IMG/VR virus record: IMGVR_UViG_3300009164_003735
Span: 1-29,435 of that record
Length of the DNA stretch: 29,435 nucleotides
DNA from: a virus
Strand: one strand, 5' to 3'
The notes under the pieces are model-generated. The model worked only from the letters and a program-made list of their open reading frames with translations, was not told where the DNA came from and made no database searches. The translations under genes and the position numbers were made by a program. Positions 6,234 through 27,493 of this stretch are shown here, piece by piece (within the stretch, counting starts at the first letter, position 1; the number at the start of each line of letters is the position of its first letter).

Positions 6234-7352
6234 TTATAAGTAATTTATCATCGAATACTTGGATGGTCTATTTTTTCTGTTATCGGATCTTCTAATAGTG
6301 TGATCAGTATTTGATAAGTCAAAACCCATTTCAACACCGTCTTTTATAACTTTTCTAACTTGTAAAGAGTCCGGCGTAGCATATCCAAACCCAACTGAAA
6401 TAATTGCAGTATGGTTAGGACGATTTAATCGATCAGCAATTTCTCTTCCGCCAAGTGTTCCGCAAAATCCTGTTCTCACACCCAGCTCTTCTGCTTGACA
6501 CATAGCCATAGTAGCACTGATAATACAATCGTTGTTAGTTCTTAGCCATTCGCTTTCACCGTATGGATTACGTGTTGCTGGTTGAGTTTTACCTAACCAA
6601 ACAATAACAATAGGCGCTAACATTTGTCCGTTATAGCGTCGTGGTCCGGGACCAGGTGCTGCTCTTACTTTGTTAAGACATGCAGTATTCTCCCAGAACA
6701 GATAGTCTTTAAACTCTTTTCCTTCTGTAGAATCAGTTAATACATGTATTTCAAAATCGTGATGACCTTGTTTACTTGGCGCTTGATATGCACATTCGAG
6801 AATAGTTTCTAACTTATCGTTTTCAACTTCAATGGGATCCCACCATTTAGCAGTAAATCGTTTTTCAAGATGATTATGTAGATACTCTTTCTTAGGACCA
6901 TCTACAATTGACTCAATTAGCAACTGACAATCATTATAGATCTTAGTAACCGCTACCTGTTCAACTTCTTGAGTAGTTATCACCTGTAATGCAATAGCTT
7001 GCTGAGATGTATATTGTAAGTTTTTAAAAACGTAGTTTACAATTAGATCTCTTAAAAAATGATGAGCAGTGATCTCTTTTTGTTTATTACCAACAAGTGC
7101 AGACTTATCGCCTTTCCAATATCTACTACCTACAAATATCATACGTTCGTTGTTATCCAACTCAAGGCCCTCGAGATACGCATTAATAACAATTTTTATA
7201 TCGCGGCGGCAAAAGTCAACAGACGGAACAGTTTGCGGAAATCCCTCAAACCCCAGTGTTTGAGTCTGCGTGTGGGCATTGATAAATGCCATTGTCTCTT
7301 CTAAACAAAAGTCCTTGTTATCAAGTAACATTTTATAAGCATTTATATACAT
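6234..7352 (-). CDS. nitroreductase fused to a virion-structural-type domain
   Basis: 372 aa in two parts. Residues 165-325 look like a nitroreductase: an RFTAKWWDPI start, AYQAPSKQGHHDF (the APS motif near FMN), then an NNDCIISATMAMCQAEELG helix and a GFCGTL segment. Such enzymes use FMN and NAD(P)H to reduce nitro, quinone or similar groups, and relatives can oxidise or dehydrogenate. Residues 5-110 (NKDF, CRRDIKIVINAYLEGLE, the NNER and GSRYWKG segments) resemble the CxRDvgyivda...Dl..GgN...Y repeat I remember from cyanophage virion proteins. The fusion is in one uninterrupted frame. A GAAGG-like ribosome site precedes ATG 7352. It sits second in a late-promoted leftward unit, 4 bases after the previous gene. 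Confidence 0.72.
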   Translation of the reverse strand: MYINAYKMLLDNKDFCLEETMAFINAHTQTQTLGFEGFPQTVPSVDFCRRDIKIVINAYLEGLELDNNERMIFVGSRYWKGDKSALVGNKQKEITAHHFLRDLIVNYVFKNLQYTSQQAIALQVITTQEVEQVAVTKIYNDCQLLIESIVDGPKKEYLHNHLEKRFTAKWWDPIEVENDKLETILECAYQAPSKQGHHDFEIHVLTDSTEGKEFKDYLFWENTACLNKVRAAPGPGPRRYNGQMLAPIVIVWLGKTQPATRNPYGESEWLRTNNDCIISATMAMCQAEELGVRTGFCGTLGGREIADRLNRPNHTAIISVGFGYATPDSLQVRKVIKDGVEMGFDLSNTDHTIRRSDNRKNRPSKYSMINYL

Positions 7353-7998: not shown

Positions 7999-8652
7999 AT
8001 GCACATGCAAGTTATAAAACTAAACAATGAAAATATAGAACTGTTGGTTAAGTTCTGCGACAAAGCAAGGCTGGCAGGCTTTTCTAACAATACCTCACCA
8101 GCAAAGATGAAGTTCAACGGGCATCAAGATATGGCGCATCCTCCTGAATTTTGGGGATTGTTAGTCGACGGCAACCTTGCTTCAGTCAGCGGTTGCCATA
8201 AATGGCCCGACGCTGATAGAAACTATACCACAGTGCGATGTTTGTTTAGGAGTGCTACACTACCCGAATATGATCACTTGATTCCGGGGCTGAGTAAGAA
8301 TCATATGAACAGTGTACCTTTTAGTATTTTACTACCTTATCAGATCCAGTATGCATTAGATAACAACTGTAAAGATTGGTTAATAACTACAAGCCACGGA
8401 GATCATGATGTTAGCGGGAAAATGAAACGTACCCACCGTGCATTACAACTGCTTGAAAAAAGAGACATTGTTAAATTTCACAGAGAATCAATTGTTTATC
8501 ATATACCACAAACTTTGTGGAGAATTAATTTAACTCAGTATCACAGTGCATTATGCGCATTTCATTCATCTCGAGAGCGATTAGGCATAGGGCTCGACGA
8601 TGAATATTACAATATGATTAAGAATGGATTTGTTAGTAGGCCTTTGGAATAA
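7999..8652 (+). CDS. GNAT-like acetyltransferase fold protein
   Basis: 217 aa from ATG 7999 (MHMQVIKLNN); a second ATG six bases on is equally possible, and both lie just after the promoter at 7950. Features that fit the GNAT fold: a helix-rich N-terminus, a strand FWGLLVDGNLASVSG, a strand VRCLFRSATL, then PFSILLPYQIQYALDNNCKDWLI resembling the acetyl-CoA helix and the following strand. The classical Q/RxxGxG/A loop is not evident, so the assignment is by overall pattern. A second protein of this type is encoded at 11588. The last 20 bases overlap the end of the ANL gene on the other strand. Confidence 0.5.
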   Translation: MHMQVIKLNNENIELLVKFCDKARLAGFSNNTSPAKMKFNGHQDMAHPPEFWGLLVDGNLASVSGCHKWPDADRNYTTVRCLFRSATLPEYDHLIPGLSKNHMNSVPFSILLPYQIQYALDNNCKDWLITTSHGDHDVSGKMKRTHRALQLLEKRDIVKFHRESIVYHIPQTLWRINLTQYHSALCAFHSSRERLGIGLDDEYYNMIKNGFVSRPLE

Positions 8653-9571
8653 TCTTGCAGCCTGCGCTTTTTCTACCTTTGTAGATATACCAATTATTCC
8701 ATAACTCAACGCAGTCGCCTGTTGGTAACCATGTGTCACCTATGATCACACTGTTGCCTTTTAAGAATAATTCTCCGTTAACAATTTTAGTATCAGCCCA
8801 GCAGGTATCGCCAAGCGGTACACCTTGATCAAATACTGTTAACTCATCACCCTGTGCAAATTTGTGATTAATAATGATAGGCCCTGCTTCAGTCATTCCG
8901 TAATTCATTATAAAATTTACTCCACGATTAATCCAAAATTCTACATGATACTTATGTACACAGTCACTGCCTGCAACTGTTAAACGTAGATTGGGTATGG
9001 CTAACTCTGAGTTGACTTTGATCAACGCATCTATATGTACCGGAATTAGATGTGTAACGGTGATATTATGTTGCTGTAGTAATTTAAAAAAGTTAAATGC
9101 ATTGAACTGCTCTATAAGATTGTATGCACCGCAGAGCAACCCTGCAATAGTTTGGGCACTTAATCCGCCTGTATGATTTAGAGAGCATACAGTTAGTATG
9201 CGATCCTGATCAGTAATCTGCTGGCATTCTACAGCATTCTTTGCATTAGCCATAATCATTCGTTCGGGCATAAAGAGTTGTTTTCGAATACCTGAACTAC
9301 TGCCACTACTAAACAATGTGATTCCAAATTCGTCGGGCAACGTAACTGGTAGTTGTACTAATTCTCTTTTAAACTTAGGCATAATAGCCACGGCTTTATT
9401 TAAACTTGCAGCCTTAAGAACGTCAAGTAATACAGTCCAATCGGTAGCGTAGCTTACTGGTACATACTCTCGTTCAATGACCATATCATATAACTGTTGG
9501 TAAGTTAGATTATTAATGGCTAATTTATGAGAATATTTTTGAACAGTGGAAGTAAAGGTCTTAAATAGCAT
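8633..9571 (-). CDS. truncated ANL adenylate-forming enzyme (acyl/aryl-CoA ligase-like)
   Basis: 312 aa, against about 500-550 for complete ANL enzymes. Core motifs are present: A3-like FSSGSSSG at 87-94 (ATP loop), A5 NYGMTE at 213-218, A7 PTGD at 273-276 and A8 KGR at 288-290. The protein ends about 22 residues after A8, so the mobile C-terminal domain with the A10 lysine is absent, and the N-terminus is also short. ANL enzymes activate a carboxylate as acyl-AMP; without the C-terminal domain, thioester formation may need a partner. The start is ATG 9571 because a TATAAATA box lies 8 bases upstream; a longer frame to 9709 is only antisense of the next gene. Confidence 0.82.
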   Translation of the reverse strand: MLFKTFTSTVQKYSHKLAINNLTYQQLYDMVIEREYVPVSYATDWTVLLDVLKAASLNKAVAIMPKFKRELVQLPVTLPDEFGITLFSSGSSSGIRKQLFMPERMIMANAKNAVECQQITDQDRILTVCSLNHTGGLSAQTIAGLLCGAYNLIEQFNAFNFFKLLQQHNITVTHLIPVHIDALIKVNSELAIPNLRLTVAGSDCVHKYHVEFWINRGVNFIMNYGMTEAGPIIINHKFAQGDELTVFDQGVPLGDTCWADTKIVNGELFLKGNSVIIGDTWLPTGDCVELWNNWYIYKGRKSAGCKIIPKAY

Positions 9572-10277
9572 GAGCGAAATATTTATAGGTATTACAGTGG
9601 ACGTATTTTTTATTAGTTTCAAAGAAAGCAACAGTGAAATAAACTGGCAACGTACAAAAGAACTGCATCCAGATGCAGTGAGATTGCACGGCATAACGGG
9701 CATAGACAAAGTCCATTTGCTTTGTGATGATCTATGTCAAACTGAATTCTTTTGGACAGTTGACGGAGATAATTGGCTTACTCATACTTTAGAATATCAT
9801 GAACAAATTAATAGTGATTTATTAATGTTCAAAGCTAACGATCCGTTACACAAAAATTTAACCTTATTAGGCGGAGTTAAATTATGGAGGAAAGGCAGCA
9901 TTGTAAATCGAGATATGAGTAAGGGCGATTTCAGTCTAAACGCAACACAAACCAAAATGGTTATTGATCAAGCATATTCAGACACAATCTATAATAAGAC
10001 CCCGTATGACGCATGGAAGACTGCTTTTAGACACTGTGTTAAATTGATGAGCGTGATATTTCGATCCAGACCAAATGCTAAAAACATAGATGTATATATT
10101 GATCAATGGAAGGCCTGCGAGCATATAACAGAATTAAATGCAATCTGGGCATATCAAGGATACGTTGACGCTAAAGAATACGTTGAAAAATTTGATAACA
10201 ATTTAACAGAGCTGTATAAGATAAACAATTACACGTGGCTCGAAAAATATTTTAAGGGTAAACATGGGGCATCTTAA
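9570..10277 (+). CDS. glycosyltransferase-like protein (phage DGD family)
   Basis: 235 aa from ATG 9570. VDVFFISFKESNSEINW near the N-terminus, LHGITGIDKVHLLC, and FFWTVDGDNWL at about 62-72 match a phage family that I recall beginning MDVFFISY, with a DGD motif like the DxD of nucleotide-sugar transferases. On that comparison GTG 9597 could be the true start. AAAGG at 9555-9559 favours ATG 9570, which shares the palindrome CATG with the start codon of the divergent ANL gene. The substrate is unknown. It is followed by a DUF6356 gene overlapping by 14 bases and a methyltransferase-like gene, probably one operon. Confidence 0.65.
   Translation: MSEIFIGITVDVFFISFKESNSEINWQRTKELHPDAVRLHGITGIDKVHLLCDDLCQTEFFWTVDGDNWLTHTLEYHEQINSDLLMFKANDPLHKNLTLLGGVKLWRKGSIVNRDMSKGDFSLNATQTKMVIDQAYSDTIYNKTPYDAWKTAFRHCVKLMSVIFRSRPNAKNIDVYIDQWKACEHITELNAIWAYQGYVDAKEYVEKFDNNLTELYKINNYTWLEKYFKGKHGAS
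9580..9587 (-). promoter_or_regulatory. T4-like late promoter box for the ANL gene
   Basis: Minus-strand CTATAAATATTT holds an exact TATAAATA ending 8 bases before ATG 9571. With T4 spacing the transcript would start about two bases before the ATG, leaving no room for a ribosome site. The box lies within the first codons of the divergent gene. Confidence 0.7.
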
Positions 10278-14774: not shown

Positions 14775-15599
14775 ATGTTTTTAGGGCATGTAACTGATTT
14801 TGAAGAAGGCACTTATACGCCTATAGAACAATTAGATAATAAGTACGTATTGGTAAAATCAAATAATCAATACAAAATTATTTCTAATGTATGTCCGCAT
14901 CAACGGAGTATTATATCAACGAAGTCGGGAATAGGTAGCAGAGTATGCCCCTATCATAATTGGAGTTTTACTTTAGAAGGTGCTCCTATTAAGTCAGGCC
15001 GTACAGAATACTACTGCAAAAACGAAACAGCTTTAGAAGAATTACCTGTCTACGAATGGAATGGGTTTTTATCAACTGCACCCATAGCCTGCAAAGAACT
15101 TGAGTTTGTAGATTTAACTAACCTAAAATTAGTCGAAAAGAGAATTGATCTCGTTTCTGCTGTTCCCGAGAATATCATGGACTTGTTTTTAGATGTAGAT
15201 CACATAGCCACAATTCATGCGGGAGTCTATGACCAAATTGGACTATCTAACATCAGTGAAGTTGACTGGGTTTACTACGACAATCGCAGTTTGCAGCTGG
15301 TAAGAAAACACGATGGATACGGTGCTGCATGGTTAGCAGTTTATCCTGAAACTATGATAGAGTGGCAACCTGGAGCAGTTTTTATTACTGTTGCTATTCC
15401 CAACAGCACTAATAGTTCACGAGTTGTGGTTTACAAATATAAAGACTTGTCTGATCTAAAAAACAGCTACGCATTGAATCAACAGGTATGGGAAACAGCT
15501 TGGGCACAAGATAAAGAACAATCTCAAATGTTAACCGAGTTTGCTCAAACTAATCTTGAAGAATCTAAATATCATTTTAGATCGTTTCTCAACCGTTGA
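14775..15599 (+). CDS. Rieske non-heme iron oxygenase alpha-subunit-like protein
   Basis: 274 aa, shorter than typical alpha subunits (about 330-450). The Rieske cluster ligands are C40-x-H42 (NVCPHQ) and C58-x2-H61 (VCPYHNW). The mononuclear iron site shows D140-x2-H143-x4-H148 in DLFLDVDHIATIHAG, the spacing of classical ring-hydroxylating oxygenases. A later Asp in WAQDKEQSQ may be the third ligand. Such enzymes insert O2 using electrons from a reductase, which is not encoded here and would have to come from the host. It closes the 12322-15599 operon; its last 11 bases overlap ATP-PPase B on the other strand. Confidence 0.88.
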   Translation: MFLGHVTDFEEGTYTPIEQLDNKYVLVKSNNQYKIISNVCPHQRSIISTKSGIGSRVCPYHNWSFTLEGAPIKSGRTEYYCKNETALEELPVYEWNGFLSTAPIACKELEFVDLTNLKLVEKRIDLVSAVPENIMDLFLDVDHIATIHAGVYDQIGLSNISEVDWVYYDNRSLQLVRKHDGYGAAWLAVYPETMIEWQPGAVFITVAIPNSTNSSRVVVYKYKDLSDLKNSYALNQQVWETAWAQDKEQSQMLTEFAQTNLEESKYHFRSFLNR

Positions 15600-16528: not shown

Positions 16529-17287
16529 ATGACAAATAAAAAAATAGGTTACGAACACTTTTATAAAGACTCAAGAGGCAATAGAAGACGAAGCGGAATC
16601 TTTGCTCCGGGCATTGATAGATTCATCCTAATAGATGATTACGACTTTTGGATGACTTTTGAAACTGCGGAGTTGATTAGTTCTAAAGTACCAACAGTGG
16701 CATATATTCTTCCACCTACCGACTTCGAATTAACTAATGCAAACTGCATTGGGTATACAATTTTTAATAAAACAAAGCAACGTATTGGGCCAAGTCCTAT
16801 ATCCATTGCAAGGCAGAATCCACAGTTAAAGTTTTTATTCGACTATACAAAGATTACATTCTCCGACATACCCGAAGATTACAAAACGGATGATCGTCGA
16901 CCTATGCTGACTAAACTACAAGAGTGGGCAGATTATGTCCACAATCTTGTTTATGTAATTAACATGACCGAAGCATTGTTTAACCCGTTTAACAATAAAG
17001 ACTTCGTGCAGAAATATGCAAACCCGCAATGGCTTGCAGGATTAAAATCTAAGGTTGATAGATCTGCAACTGAAAATGGTGTATTCTTTGAAATACGCCA
17101 TGCATTGTATATGGCTAACAACATCGAAGATGCCGAACTTCGTATACTTAATATTTGGAAAGAACATTATCACGAACAGCAATATATGCTACACGGATTT
17201 TATAAAATATGGAACAGGCCTGTTCCCGAAGAACTTGCAGATGTAGCAACTTATAAACCAGAAACTGTATCAACTTTTATTGTATAA
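16529..17287 (+). CDS. hypothetical protein between two ATP-PPase genes
   Basis: 252 aa, unrecognised. The N-terminus is basic and polar (NKKIGYEHFYKDSRGNRRRSG), then IDRFILIDDYDFWMTFETAEL and VPTVAYILPPTDFEL suggest alternating strands and helices; the C-terminal half is helical with Trp/His-rich EHYHEQQYMLHGFYKIW. There are no membrane spans, cysteine clusters or nucleotide loops. The gene ends one base before ATG 17289 of ATP-PPase C, so the two are probably co-translated, which suggests a partner or substrate-handling protein for that enzyme. Confidence 0.65.
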   Translation: MTNKKIGYEHFYKDSRGNRRRSGIFAPGIDRFILIDDYDFWMTFETAELISSKVPTVAYILPPTDFELTNANCIGYTIFNKTKQRIGPSPISIARQNPQLKFLFDYTKITFSDIPEDYKTDDRRPMLTKLQEWADYVHNLVYVINMTEALFNPFNNKDFVQKYANPQWLAGLKSKVDRSATENGVFFEIRHALYMANNIEDAELRILNIWKEHYHEQQYMLHGFYKIWNRPVPEELADVATYKPETVSTFIV

Positions 17288-17288
17288 T

Positions 17289-18542
17289 ATGATCAATCTT
17301 AACGACACACTTTACTTTTCCAGTATCAGCTTTAATTCTTACTACAATGATGTATGGAACAACATATATCAAGAATGTGATGCAGGCGGCAAGTTCTATA
17401 TTAATGTAGCTAAGAGATTAAACCCTTGCAGGTTTGTTACACGCCACGGTGAATGGAGTTTGCCTTGGAAACAGGAACTAATTCCAGGATTCGAAATGCC
17501 TGCATACGATCCTTCATTTAGCAAATCCTTTAGTGAGATCACAGATACAAAAGCATTATCTATTAAGCAACAAATACAGCAAGGAAAAAAGTTTGCAGTT
17601 ATGTACTCGGGCGGGATTGACAGTACTGTTATCATGGCATCACTGTTAAAAAACTTAACTGCTGAGGAACTTACAGAAATTACAGTCTGCGCCAGCACTG
17701 AATCAATTATAGAAAATCCTGTATTTTGGAAAAAGTATATCTTTGAAAAATTTAAGATTCTTGATTCTAATAGTAATAAGTACGATGACTTAATTGAGCA
17801 AGGACTTACGCCTATTACTGCCGACGAGGGCGATTGTATATTCGGTACTGTGTTCGGACTAACACTTTATAACCACTACGATTATTACATCCAAGACATG
17901 GATAGGTCAGTTCGCATTAATCTACGCAATTTAAAATATAAAATCAGTGATCCTAATGTACATTTTAGTGTTTACAAAGAGTTGATAATTAAACATTTGA
18001 GCATCGAAGGTGACAACACATTTGGTAGATTACTCTACGAAAAATATGCACACAACATTAAAACTTCTAACGTGCCTGTGCATAGTCTACATGATTTTTT
18101 CTGGTGGTTGATCTTTAATGTTAAATATCTCAACTGTGCTGTAAGGGGTGCGTTATATTACAACGATCGAGTAGAATGGAAAACAGCTATCGAAACTGTA
18201 GTCAATTGGTACAGTGATCCAGAATACCAACTTTGGTCCATGGTCAATAATAACAATGGACAGAAAATAAACTATACATTGGCATCTTATAAAAATGCTG
18301 CCAGACAGTATATATGGGAGTTTGATAAGAACGATTGGTACAAGAATTTTAAGATTAAACTTGAATCAATGTGGACCATTGCTCATCAGCAGAATGTAGA
18401 CAAAATCGAACTTGATCGTAGACCTGTAGCCAGAGTGGGGTTGACTAAAGACTACGAAATGCTATATATTAACGATCCTGGGGTGCAGGACTTCTTTAAA
18501 CACCACTTGAAAAATTTTAAAATTGACTGGAGAGAAAATTGA
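17289..18542 (+). CDS. ATP-pyrophosphatase (asparagine-synthase-like) protein C
   Basis: 417 aa from ATG 17289; TTG 17280 would overlap the previous gene. The PP-loop MYSGGIDSTV at about 105-114 (S107-GGID-S112) is a canonical SGGxDS. The N-terminal 100 residues contain FYINVAKRLNPC and other segments not seen in A or B, and a following ADEGDCIFG segment recalls the GxDE/E-G-D region of asparagine synthase C-domains. The C-terminal region is helical and Trp-rich. There is no N-terminal cysteine glutaminase, so an amino donor other than glutamine, or a partner, is expected. The TctC gene follows 8 bases later. Confidence 0.75.
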   Translation: MINLNDTLYFSSISFNSYYNDVWNNIYQECDAGGKFYINVAKRLNPCRFVTRHGEWSLPWKQELIPGFEMPAYDPSFSKSFSEITDTKALSIKQQIQQGKKFAVMYSGGIDSTVIMASLLKNLTAEELTEITVCASTESIIENPVFWKKYIFEKFKILDSNSNKYDDLIEQGLTPITADEGDCIFGTVFGLTLYNHYDYYIQDMDRSVRINLRNLKYKISDPNVHFSVYKELIIKHLSIEGDNTFGRLLYEKYAHNIKTSNVPVHSLHDFFWWLIFNVKYLNCAVRGALYYNDRVEWKTAIETVVNWYSDPEYQLWSMVNNNNGQKINYTLASYKNAARQYIWEFDKNDWYKNFKIKLESMWTIAHQQNVDKIELDRRPVARVGLTKDYEMLYINDPGVQDFFKHHLKNFKIDWREN

Positions 18543-18550
18543 GGGAACTT

Positions 18551-19462
18551 ATGAAAAAGATTATTGCAGCTTTAATGGCTACATTTGCACTTTCGGCTAT
18601 TGCCAAAGAAAACATTACTATTGTATACGCATGGGGGCCGGGCGACTCTGTTGCTAACTACCATAGAACCATTGCCAATGAGGCAAACAAGATTCAAGAC
18701 AAGTACAACTTTATGTTTGATACTAAACCAGGTGCAGGCGGCGCTATTGCGGTTAATCATGTATTGGCCACCCCTAATACTGTATTAGCACACAGCACAG
18801 CATTTTTTGTTCGACCTGTAGTTTATCCTAACGAAAGTTACGATTTGACACAGTTAAAAGAACAGTATGTTCATTGTATGGCACCAATGGCAGTTACATC
18901 ATCTAAGTTTAACGCATGGAAAGATGTTTCAGCTGACGCTAAGGTCAGTGTTGGTATTTCAGGTCTCGGAGTTACAACACATTTGGCAGCATTGCAGTTA
19001 CAAAAGAAATACGCTAACTTAAACATTATCCCGTTTAAGAGTACTAATGACAGTATGCTTTCTATGGTATCGGGTCAAACTGATTTCCACATTGGCTTTA
19101 TCAGCGAAGCAGAACAGTGGAGTAAGGAAAATGCCAAAGCAGATCGTAAGGTTAGCGTATTAGGCATTACAGGTAACAAGGCTGTTAACGGATATCAACC
19201 ATTAGTTAATCAAGGCTTTGATCGCAGTTTTGCTGATATGAACGTCGGTCATCATCTGCTATTGCCTATTAAGAGTGACGACGCTCGACACAAAGAGTTT
19301 CATTCTATCTTTACTAAGGCTGCACAGACTCCTGCTGTTCGAGCAGCATATGCAGTAGACTATTGCGAACCGCAGGCAGTGCAATACGATGCACTACCAA
19401 AGTTCTTTAACTTCCATACTGAATATTGGAAGAAACTTAGTTCAGGAATTAAACTAAACTAA
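18551..19462 (+). CDS. TctC/Bug-type periplasmic solute-binding protein with signal peptide
   Basis: 303 aa. The N-terminus MKKIIAALMATFALSAIAKE is a classic Sec signal peptide with AIA before the likely cleavage point. After it YAWGPGDSVANYHR and KPGAGGAIAVNHVL match the first strand and the PGAGG motif of the TctC/Bug family (tripartite tricarboxylate transporter receptors), which bind carboxylates in the periplasm. The membrane subunits TctA/TctB are not in the window, so it would work with host permeases, act as a scavenger, or have a new role. GAGGG precedes ATG 18551; the TTG at 18539 is rejected because it lies in the overlap with the previous stop. A terminator follows. Confidence 0.82.
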   Translation: MKKIIAALMATFALSAIAKENITIVYAWGPGDSVANYHRTIANEANKIQDKYNFMFDTKPGAGGAIAVNHVLATPNTVLAHSTAFFVRPVVYPNESYDLTQLKEQYVHCMAPMAVTSSKFNAWKDVSADAKVSVGISGLGVTTHLAALQLQKKYANLNIIPFKSTNDSMLSMVSGQTDFHIGFISEAEQWSKENAKADRKVSVLGITGNKAVNGYQPLVNQGFDRSFADMNVGHHLLLPIKSDDARHKEFHSIFTKAAQTPAVRAAYAVDYCEPQAVQYDALPKFFNFHTEYWKKLSSGIKLN

Positions 19463-19465
19463 TTT

Positions 19466-19488
19466 AAAGGCTCTTAGGAGCCTTTTTT
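19466..19488 (+). terminator. intrinsic terminator after the TctC-like gene
   Basis: 8-bp stem AAAGGCTC/GAGCCTTT with a TTAG loop, followed by six T. It ends the 16529-19462 rightward unit. Confidence 0.9.
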
Positions 19489-21727: not shown

Positions 21728-22282
21728 ATGAGCAAAATATCAAAAAGTCTCGAACGTAATACCTTTCAAAAAGAAGGAGCAATCCGGCGAGCAAAAGAAA
21801 AGGGAGAAGAGCCGAATCAAGCCTACATTGATATGTGGGATCAGATCAAGATTGATGAAGCTAACAAGATTCACGATCCCGCTTGGCAAAAAGATAACAT
21901 GGAGTACGACCTCCGCAGTACTGATTGGATTTTAGAGAAAGTTCGCAATAACGATAACTATGCTCAAAATTTATATGCCGCTATGTGTAACAATGATTTT
22001 ATCAAACGTGAGATGTGGCCAGTATTAAAAGATCAACGGTGGTCGTGTAGTTGGAGACATAGCGGTGGCATAATTTCTGACATGCAAGAAAAAGGCGACT
22101 ACATTGATTGGTACTGTAGCGGCATTGGTAATAAAGAATCTGGTTTCGGTTTAGACGGGTACGAACCTACTCCAGATCCCGATGGCCGAGACTACGTGCC
22201 AGAAAGTGTAGTAACTGAAGAAATTGAAAATGATTTATACACTTTAGGCTGGCTTGTTGTTAAATATAAAGATGAGGAATAA
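21728..22282 (+). CDS. conserved phage protein of unknown function
   Basis: 184 aa. The core DLRSTDWILEKVRNNDNYAQ, WPVLKDQRWSCSWRHSGGII, DYIDWYCSG and the final LGWLVVKY resemble a protein I remember from many T4-like marine phages without assigned function. The N-terminal 45 residues are Lys/Glu-rich. An in-frame TAA at 21722-21724 rules out a longer reading, so ATG 21728 is the only early start; yet it lies where the consensus promoter should begin transcription, so the message would be leaderless. The next gene starts 2 bases after the stop, and GATGAGGA gives that gene its ribosome site. Confidence 0.75.
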   Translation: MSKISKSLERNTFQKEGAIRRAKEKGEEPNQAYIDMWDQIKIDEANKIHDPAWQKDNMEYDLRSTDWILEKVRNNDNYAQNLYAAMCNNDFIKREMWPVLKDQRWSCSWRHSGGIISDMQEKGDYIDWYCSGIGNKESGFGLDGYEPTPDPDGRDYVPESVVTEEIENDLYTLGWLVVKYKDEE

Positions 22283-26447: not shown

Positions 26448-26873
26448 ATGAAGATCGGACTAAGCTACAGTCGTTGCGTCTTAGACATTGTTGAAGGCCG
26501 TGTAGACATAGAAGATGTACTGGTATTGATTACCCGTACAGATTTTGACCCACGTGATGACGAACAATGGTCTGGTATCTGGGAAGGATACTGTTTAGGT
26601 GGTATGAGTAATCCCGAATGGGGGCATTACGACTTCCGCAGTAAAGACGATGAAGACAAGTTCCGTAGTGTGAGCATCATGCTTTACACAGATGGTAAAA
26701 TGCATCAGCCGCGTCAGTTTGGTGCTCATCCTCGTCGACGCCCGGAAATTTGGTTAGAAGCAGTTCTGCCAAGTATCGAATTAAAAAAGAATCCTGCTGC
26801 CAAAATTGCTTGGGACAAGTTCCAAACAGTTGCAGGTTTAACCAACGTAAATTTAGATAAGGAATACAGATAA
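26448..26873 (+). CDS. conserved phage hypothetical protein (141 aa)
   Basis: The sequence starts [35 protein letters not shown], with [18 protein letters not shown] and a later [20 protein letters not shown] remember this arrangement from a phage protein of unknown function widespread in T4-like marine phages. It has no catalytic motif. AAGGT about 10 bases before the ATG is the ribosome site. The stop overlaps the ClpP start by one base (TAATG), so the two are probably coupled. Confidence 0.75.
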
Positions 26874-27493
26874 TGCCAGGTTTAATCCCAATGGTGGTCG
26901 AGCAAGAAGCTCGAGGTGAACGCAGTTACGACATTTACAGTCGCCTACTTAAAGATCGCATTATAATGTTGGATACAGATGTTAACGAACATACATCCAG
27001 CGTTATTGTAGCACAGTTGCTATTTTTAGAAAGCCAGGGTAATGAAGATATTACATTCTTTATTAACAGCCCAGGTGGCAGTGTAACCGCCGGCTTAGCC
27101 ATTTACGATACTATGCAGTTTATTAAACCGGACGTAGCTACCTACGTTATGGGACAGGCTGCAAGTATGGGTAGTTTCCTTGCACAGGCGGGTGCGGTTG
27201 GCAAGCGTTGTGTGCTGCCGGAAAGCCGTACAATGATACATCGAGTAAGTTCAGGTACTCCGGGCACACGTGGCTCAGTACACGTACAGGAACTACAGTT
27301 TGAAGATGCTCGACGTAGCTTTGAAGAAAGCCAGCGTATTAATCAGCGTCTAACTGAGCTGTATGTCAAGCATAATACAGCTGGAAAAACCTACGAACAG
27401 CTATACGAAGCTATGAAATTTGATACGTTTTTGAGTGCCGCAGAAGCAGTTGCGTATGGCTTGGCAGATAAAGTCATTGATAAACGCCCATAA
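26873..27493 (+). CDS. clpP: ClpP-type ATP-dependent protease proteolytic subunit
   Basis: 206 aa, the normal ClpP length. Visible parts: [20 protein letters not shown] (oxyanion loop), [14 protein letters not shown] with the catalytic Ser, [12 protein letters not shown] with the catalytic His, and [22 protein letters not shown] with the catalytic Asp and the FLSA..A..YGL.D signature. The triad is intact. ClpP forms a 14-subunit chamber fed by ClpX or ClpA; no Clp ATPase is in the window, so host unfoldases are the likely partners. Phage ClpP is thought to turn over host or phage proteins during infection. The last gene before the 27514 switch. Confidence 0.95.

Follow-up and report, generated by a model that had tools for sequence, protein, structure and literature searches.

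What would a phage do with a secreted solute-binding protein that has no permease gene beside it? The question is raised by a TctC/Bug-family gene in a linear IMG/VR virus fragment of 29,435 bases (hereafter the window, meaning the whole stretch of DNA that was analysed), which was assessed with Pfam, an AlphaFold model and dN/dS. The gene occupies positions 18551–19462 of the plus strand, as a preliminary description of the sequence had it, with an ATG at 18551 and a stop codon ending at 19462, and encodes 303 residues. That it is carried by a phage, also claimed there, is borne out by the classification of the record as a virus fragment and by a predicted head-maturation protease at 26873–27490 (phrog_94, E 8.9e-43), a match that links the fragment to the tailed phages. 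T4-type gp23, the major capsid protein, is encoded in five of the 15 larger related records, and one of these copies shares 66% identity with its counterpart in PA5oct and similar jumbo Pseudomonas phages.

Fold and ligand cleft

The protein matches Pfam TctC (PF03401) over residues 53–296 with 39.1 bits (cut-off 27; E 8e-10), and neither PHROGs nor the GenBank phage collection contains a match to it. Its N-terminus (18551–18604, plus strand; residues 1–18) resembles a signal peptide. Signal peptides were scored with a rule of our own, not SignalP, by which the window protein is positive; the rule places the cut after residue 13, but by eye a cut between AIA and K, after residue 18, is preferred. 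The PGAGG motif lies at 18728–18742 on the same strand (residues 60–64, with KPGAGG spanning residues 59–64), and P60, G61, A62 and G63 are invariant in all 16 rows of the phage TctC alignment (A1), so that both the signal peptide and the motif of the earlier reading could be recovered.

The AlphaFold model, computed with 45 phage sequences (pLDDT 92.6, pTM 0.87), adopts the two-lobed Bug fold. Its top PDB relative is closed TphC (7NDS; VIA Z 31.8, rmsd 2.2, 278 aligned), followed by TBP and BugD; TctC/Bug structures fill the first 11 VIA rows (Z 24.6–31.8), and the next family reaches Z 17.6. Open TphC scores below the closed form (Z 26.9), and thus the model resembles the latter. A profile of the 45 phage relatives likewise finds TphC, with 143.9 bits and E 6.5e-41. 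The terephthalate-binding proteins TphC and TBP (PDB 7NDR, 7NDS, 8HKA) have the same fold but are only about 20% identical and are not encoded by a phage, and TphC differs at loop and pocket positions. Bordetella BugD (2F5X) and Bug27 (2QPQ), secreted TctC proteins with Z 31.1 and 30.5 against the model, are binders of aspartate and nicotinate, respectively, according to excerpts of PMC5812351.

The residues that hold the ligand in TphC, and its loop motif P-F-x-A-G-G-x-x-D, are taken from the available part of PMC8556258. At the loop, the window protein has AWGPGDSVA (residues 27–35) where TphC has PFSAGGTAD, and the canonical motif is thus missing. Within the pocket, T155, K177 and T179 of TphC are kept in the alignment as T142, K163 and T165, but Q150 is replaced by S137, G178 by S164 and N197 by F183. 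None of D32, S33, T142, K163, T165 and F183 varies among the 16 rows of the phage alignment. A mapping of TphC P86 onto the window protein was dropped because two alignments disagree on it. A ligand cleft is therefore likely to be kept in the window protein, as judged from sequence and model, but its chemistry appears to differ from that of TphC, and since the loop is altered and a pocket asparagine has become phenylalanine, the "carboxylate" of the preliminary description is a guess, although other pocket residues are retained. The family assignment survives but the canonical type does not, and sequence and model together make the protein a member of the TctC/Bug family that is not a canonical carboxylate-binding Bug.

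Phage relatives and selection

Two viral scans placed relatives of the window protein at 46 IMG/VR loci. When the genome collection was scanned with this family, the 15 stretches that fitted the pattern included no relative. Of 398 Pseudomonadota genomes searched with a profile, seven had a hit at E ≤ 1e-10, the highest at 58.3 bits, which is ordinary background. Cellular plasmid Bugs are 21–26% identical to the window protein among the matches listed (30 of 105). In a tree of 77 rows, obtained by a quick search with SH-aLRT as its only support and with some weak deep forks, the window protein falls within a phage-only set of 37 rows (SH-aLRT 95). One outlying phage copy (L014:19029), to which GenBank phages contain no match, groups among the cellular proteins, and several copies are very long-branched. 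It had been proposed to infer the host by phylogeny against host Bug proteins; this was abandoned, given the separate phage clade, the stray copy and the long branches, and the host is not readable from such a tree because the core relatives form a clade of phage proteins alone.

Against its nearest relative (L015), which holds 210 residues of the protein and is 98% identical across them, the gene has a dN/dS of 0.057 at an unsaturated dS of 0.34. Among 15 other comparisons dS was saturated in 11, and the remaining four gave 0.064–0.10 at dS above 1.8. By these ratios the window gene is under strong purifying selection and, being encoded by a virus and apparently kept by selection, it qualifies as a putative auxiliary metabolic gene. 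TctC is found in all 15 larger related records, with two or three copies in eight of them, and a second TctC-family ORF lies no more than six genes away in 22 of 47 TctC loci, a neighbourhood count that left out the locus of the window itself (L024). When identical ORFs are excluded, an export signal is seen in 53 of 56 distinct TctC ORFs, compared with 13 among the 556 other ORFs that reach 150 aa in the same loci. The three negatives are a copy with a visible signal that failed the rule (L002), one with a frame-extended start (L026) and L013:394, which is likely not a TctC.

Phage Bug proteins are already known as bare annotations from uncultured phages. The UniProt entry A0A6J5M1T7, a "Bordetella uptake protein" of an uncultured Caudovirales phage, has the Bug fold (TM 0.89) at 27% identity, and four further Bug-type entries from uncultured Caudovirales are 14–18% identical; like the first, they are annotation only. 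A survey of titles and abstract openings returned no paper devoted to TctC/Bug or DctP binding proteins of phages. The matching part of PMC8290583 holds no TctC gene, and the match there seems to be a primer.

The g25/PP-loop module and its binding proteins

In the window, TctC follows two genes on the plus strand. The first, g25 (16529–17287), has no recognised fold, and the ATG of the second, the PP-loop ATPase or "ATP-PPase C" (17289–18542; motif SGGIDST), lies 1 bp past the end of g25. The TctC ATG lies 8 bp downstream of the PP-loop gene end at 18542, and a terminator-like hairpin (19466–19485, plus strand; 8 pairs, loop of 4, T-rich tail) stands directly 3' of TctC, which agrees with the earlier placement of TctC directly behind ATP-PPase C in one unit. 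A GAGGG at 18541–18545 on this strand, picked by eye, overlaps the stop codon of the PP-loop gene and is a possible ribosome-binding site. The T4 late promoter TATAAATA occurs six times in the window with 4.5 expected, and none is claimed; sigma-70-like sites in the window were not above shuffled sequences.

The PP-loop ATPase scores 16.8 bits against Asn_synthase and 22.3 bits against LarE, each under its cut-off, and 18.5 bits against Asn synthetase across the PP-loop. A second cluster of PP-loop proteins has little in common with PP-loop C outside the motif region (BLASTP). For g25 there is no Pfam domain over the cut-off, no NCBIfam match and no PDB sequence match; PHROGs offer a family of unknown function (E 0.025), and its AlphaFold model (pLDDT 86.8) has no Foldseek match at E ≤ 0.001, the best VIA hit having Z 3.8.

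The pairing of TctC with a PP-loop gene recurs in other phages. Of 209 ORFs that are at most two genes away from TctC, 26 carry the PP-loop motif, compared with 7 of 870 farther off; such close neighbours occur at 22 of the 47 loci, one of which (L016) has a false motif. These TctC-centred counts include near-identical loci, and therefore the viral records were rescanned by the PP-loop gene alone, with no reference to TctC, which gave 41 viral loci that form 28 clusters at 90% identity. In 27 of the 28, the gene adjoining the PP-loop gene on its upstream side is g25. Within three same-strand genes downstream, 16 clusters have at least one binding protein, either TctC or DctP of the TRAP type (TctC in 9, DctP in 13): three clusters have TctC only, seven DctP only, six both and 12 neither. 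By contig name, five of the nine TctC-positive clusters (L117, L119, L120, L121, L114) come from contigs of the first scan. Within the same loci, 25 of the 61 downstream slots hold a binding-protein ORF, but only 6 of the 435 remaining positions do (odds ratio of about 50). By gene order, g25, the PP-loop ATPase and then TctC and/or DctP form a conserved module.

The tie is not obligatory, since in nine of the 47 loci (L017–L020, L022, L023, L035, L003, L004) TctC sits in a structural block directly after a head-closure gene (phrog_218, E 1.8e-41), with a tail-tube family further upstream, a position that speaks for late expression of these copies.

The preliminary description had also noted that TctA and TctB permease genes are missing, and this extends to the relatives: TctA was found in none of 14 related virus records and none of a further 10 that include the window, and the same holds for TctB, i.e. 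neither occurs in the 24 records (the window and 23 related ones), all of which are fragments. No complete TTT transporter (TctCBA) is thus seen in these fragments, nor is DctM in the 15 larger related records, likewise all fragments. This is less odd than the earlier reading supposed, because orphan Bugs are normal: most Bordetella Bug proteins lack a TctAB of their own or a neighbouring permease, according to excerpts of PMC5812351 and PMC5994714, but they are cellular, unlike the window protein. In viruses, a tctA domain is mentioned for SUP05 contigs in the accessible text of PMC6359870. Turning back to the module, DctP belongs to a different family of solute-binding proteins. We know of no PP-loop module for Bordetella Bug proteins.

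The phage DctP belongs clearly to PF03480 (185 bits) and occurs in nine of the 15 larger related virus records, sharing with TctC the slot behind the PP-loop gene. By our rule an export signal is present in none of 23 distinct phage DctP ORFs, and in the PP-loop locus set in 16 of 17 TctC ORFs and none of 16 DctP ORFs. Matches to DctP among GenBank phages are weak and include a bacterial sequence filed as phage. What a transporter binding protein would do inside the cell is the question that these signal-less proteins in the PP-loop slot raise.

Related runs are also found in bacteria. A genome scan with the DctP alignment returned 32 bacterial loci; of the 24 starts that were tested with our rule, 14 have a signal and 10 have none, the latter including L087, whose N-terminus is longer and uncertain. 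A Xanthobacteraceae MAG (L068) carries a run of a DctP without visible signal and g25-like, PP-loop-like and cluster-40-like genes, a likeness seen by eye and, for g25 and PP-loop C, also in alignments A6 and A7; in L062, a contig of 504 kb from a "bacterium" MAG, a g25-like gene, a PP-loop-like gene and a DctP gene stand in a row. At L064, L066, L071 and L080, a cluster-40 gene directly precedes a signal-less DctP, and Pfam identifies the gene ahead of cluster-40 in L064 as an MFS transporter. The cluster-40 protein resembles a 2-oxoglutarate oxygenase by eye, and Pfam finds nothing significant in it. Searched with the phage TctC profile, 11 of 12 such bacterial genomes gave no match, and the 50 matches in the Xanthobacteraceae MAG mark an ordinary Bug-rich genome. 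As separate observations, signal-less DctP genes beside PP-loop or cluster-40 genes lie at L021:11923–12867 and in its relatives, at L068:4001–4933 and at L062:3917–4936, and the bacterial run of MFS-type transporter, cluster-40 and signal-less DctP spans L064:3–2117 and L066:2066–4939, with Pfam applied to L064 only.

Possible roles of the phage Bug protein

Building on family, fold, export signal, selection and synteny, we infer, tentatively and with a little less than even confidence, that this phage-resident secreted Bug catches a small ligand for a host permease and serves the g25/PP-loop module. TctC, the final gene of its unit, would be expressed during infection, and its product would be exported to the host periplasm and close there around a small polar ligand. 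The ligand would then pass to a TctAB-type or other permease of the host, the phage lacking its own, and inside the cell it, or a product of it, may serve the g25/PP-loop module, as the conserved synteny suggests. Where related phages have another TctC in this slot together with a DctP that lacks a signal and is presumably cytoplasmic, each compartment would seem to be served by a binding protein of its own within a single pathway. Three roles had been offered initially, namely supply of a carboxylate to the host, feeding of the island enzymes and action at the cell surface, and the conservation of the TctC–PP-loop link across phages, with binding proteins so enriched in the downstream slots, favours the second. 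Counting against it are the 12 of 28 PP-loop loci without a binding protein in the slot, the nine TctC copies in structural blocks and the altered ligand loop, and genes of phage islands can adjoin without working together. If the proposal is correct, the phage-only Bug clade, with its several copies per genome, and the uncharacterised PP-loop module to which it keeps a conserved link would amount to nutrient or precursor capture built into infection.

A fairly unlikely alternative, which nevertheless deserves weight, is that the gene is nutrient-scavenging cargo, an extra Bug for carboxylate or amino-acid uptake by the host that is unrelated to the PP-loop module. Phages do carry single binding proteins, as with PstS for phosphate. 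Orphan Bugs are common and may share few permeases (excerpts of PMC5994714 and PMC5812351), and TctC stands apart from a PP-loop gene in about half of its loci, including the late structural block. Against this speak the concentration of binding proteins just downstream of the PP-loop gene and the signal-less DctP in the same slot, which cannot be a periplasmic scavenger. A bolder version of the favoured scheme, which we regard as distinctly unlikely, would be a two-compartment relay of large phages, with the exported Bug catching a compound outside and the signal-less DctP holding that compound or its product inside, in which the g25/PP-loop pair makes a small molecule of benefit to infection; the pathway would be shared with some bacteria, and the two unrelated families of binding proteins would be interchangeable.

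Slightly less probable again is a periplasmic sponge, decoy or signal that, by binding a compound made by the host or present outside the cell, silences a sensor, blocks a host transporter or neutralises an inhibitor with no import at all. The lack of a permease in the 24 records would suit such a role, as would the ligand-loop residues unlike those of TphC, and BctC illustrates that a TctC protein can signal (PMC5812351, in part), but no sensor kinase was seen beside TctC in the window, and orphan Bugs usually have no such role. An improbable reading is a repurposed fold, enzyme-like or structural, for example a component of the virion or cell surface: it could draw on the nine loci next to head-closure and tail-tube genes and on the fact that periplasmic-binding folds can be enzymes (yeast Thi5 reaches Z 15.7 against the model), but the nearly universal export signal is ill-suited to a virion part assembled in the cytoplasm, and the nearest structures to the model are Bugs closed around a ligand. 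That a bacterial contig was miscalled as viral is scarcely credible, for although the fragment is linear, shows no capsid gene and has many metabolic genes, it holds the head-maturation protease, its relatives encode T4-type capsid proteins and the clade is missing from the genome scan.

Several other genes were noticed in passing. The window has three fatty-acid desaturase genes (PF00487; 12322–13083, 13080–13862 and 20917–21678), similar ones being present at the bacterial locus L062, and a Rieske-type oxygenase gene (PF00355) at 14775–15599 within the metabolic island. An AMP-binding (acyl-activating) domain protein is encoded on the minus strand at 8633–9709, and the 372-aa ORF at 6234–7352 combines a C-terminal nitroreductase domain (Pfam) with weak N-terminal matches to tail-fibre PHROGs. 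In the jumbo-size record IMGVR_UViG_3300027708_000012 (L127; 345369 bases), a desaturase-like gene, PP-loop C, DctP and a homologue of the window ORF at 21728 are clustered.
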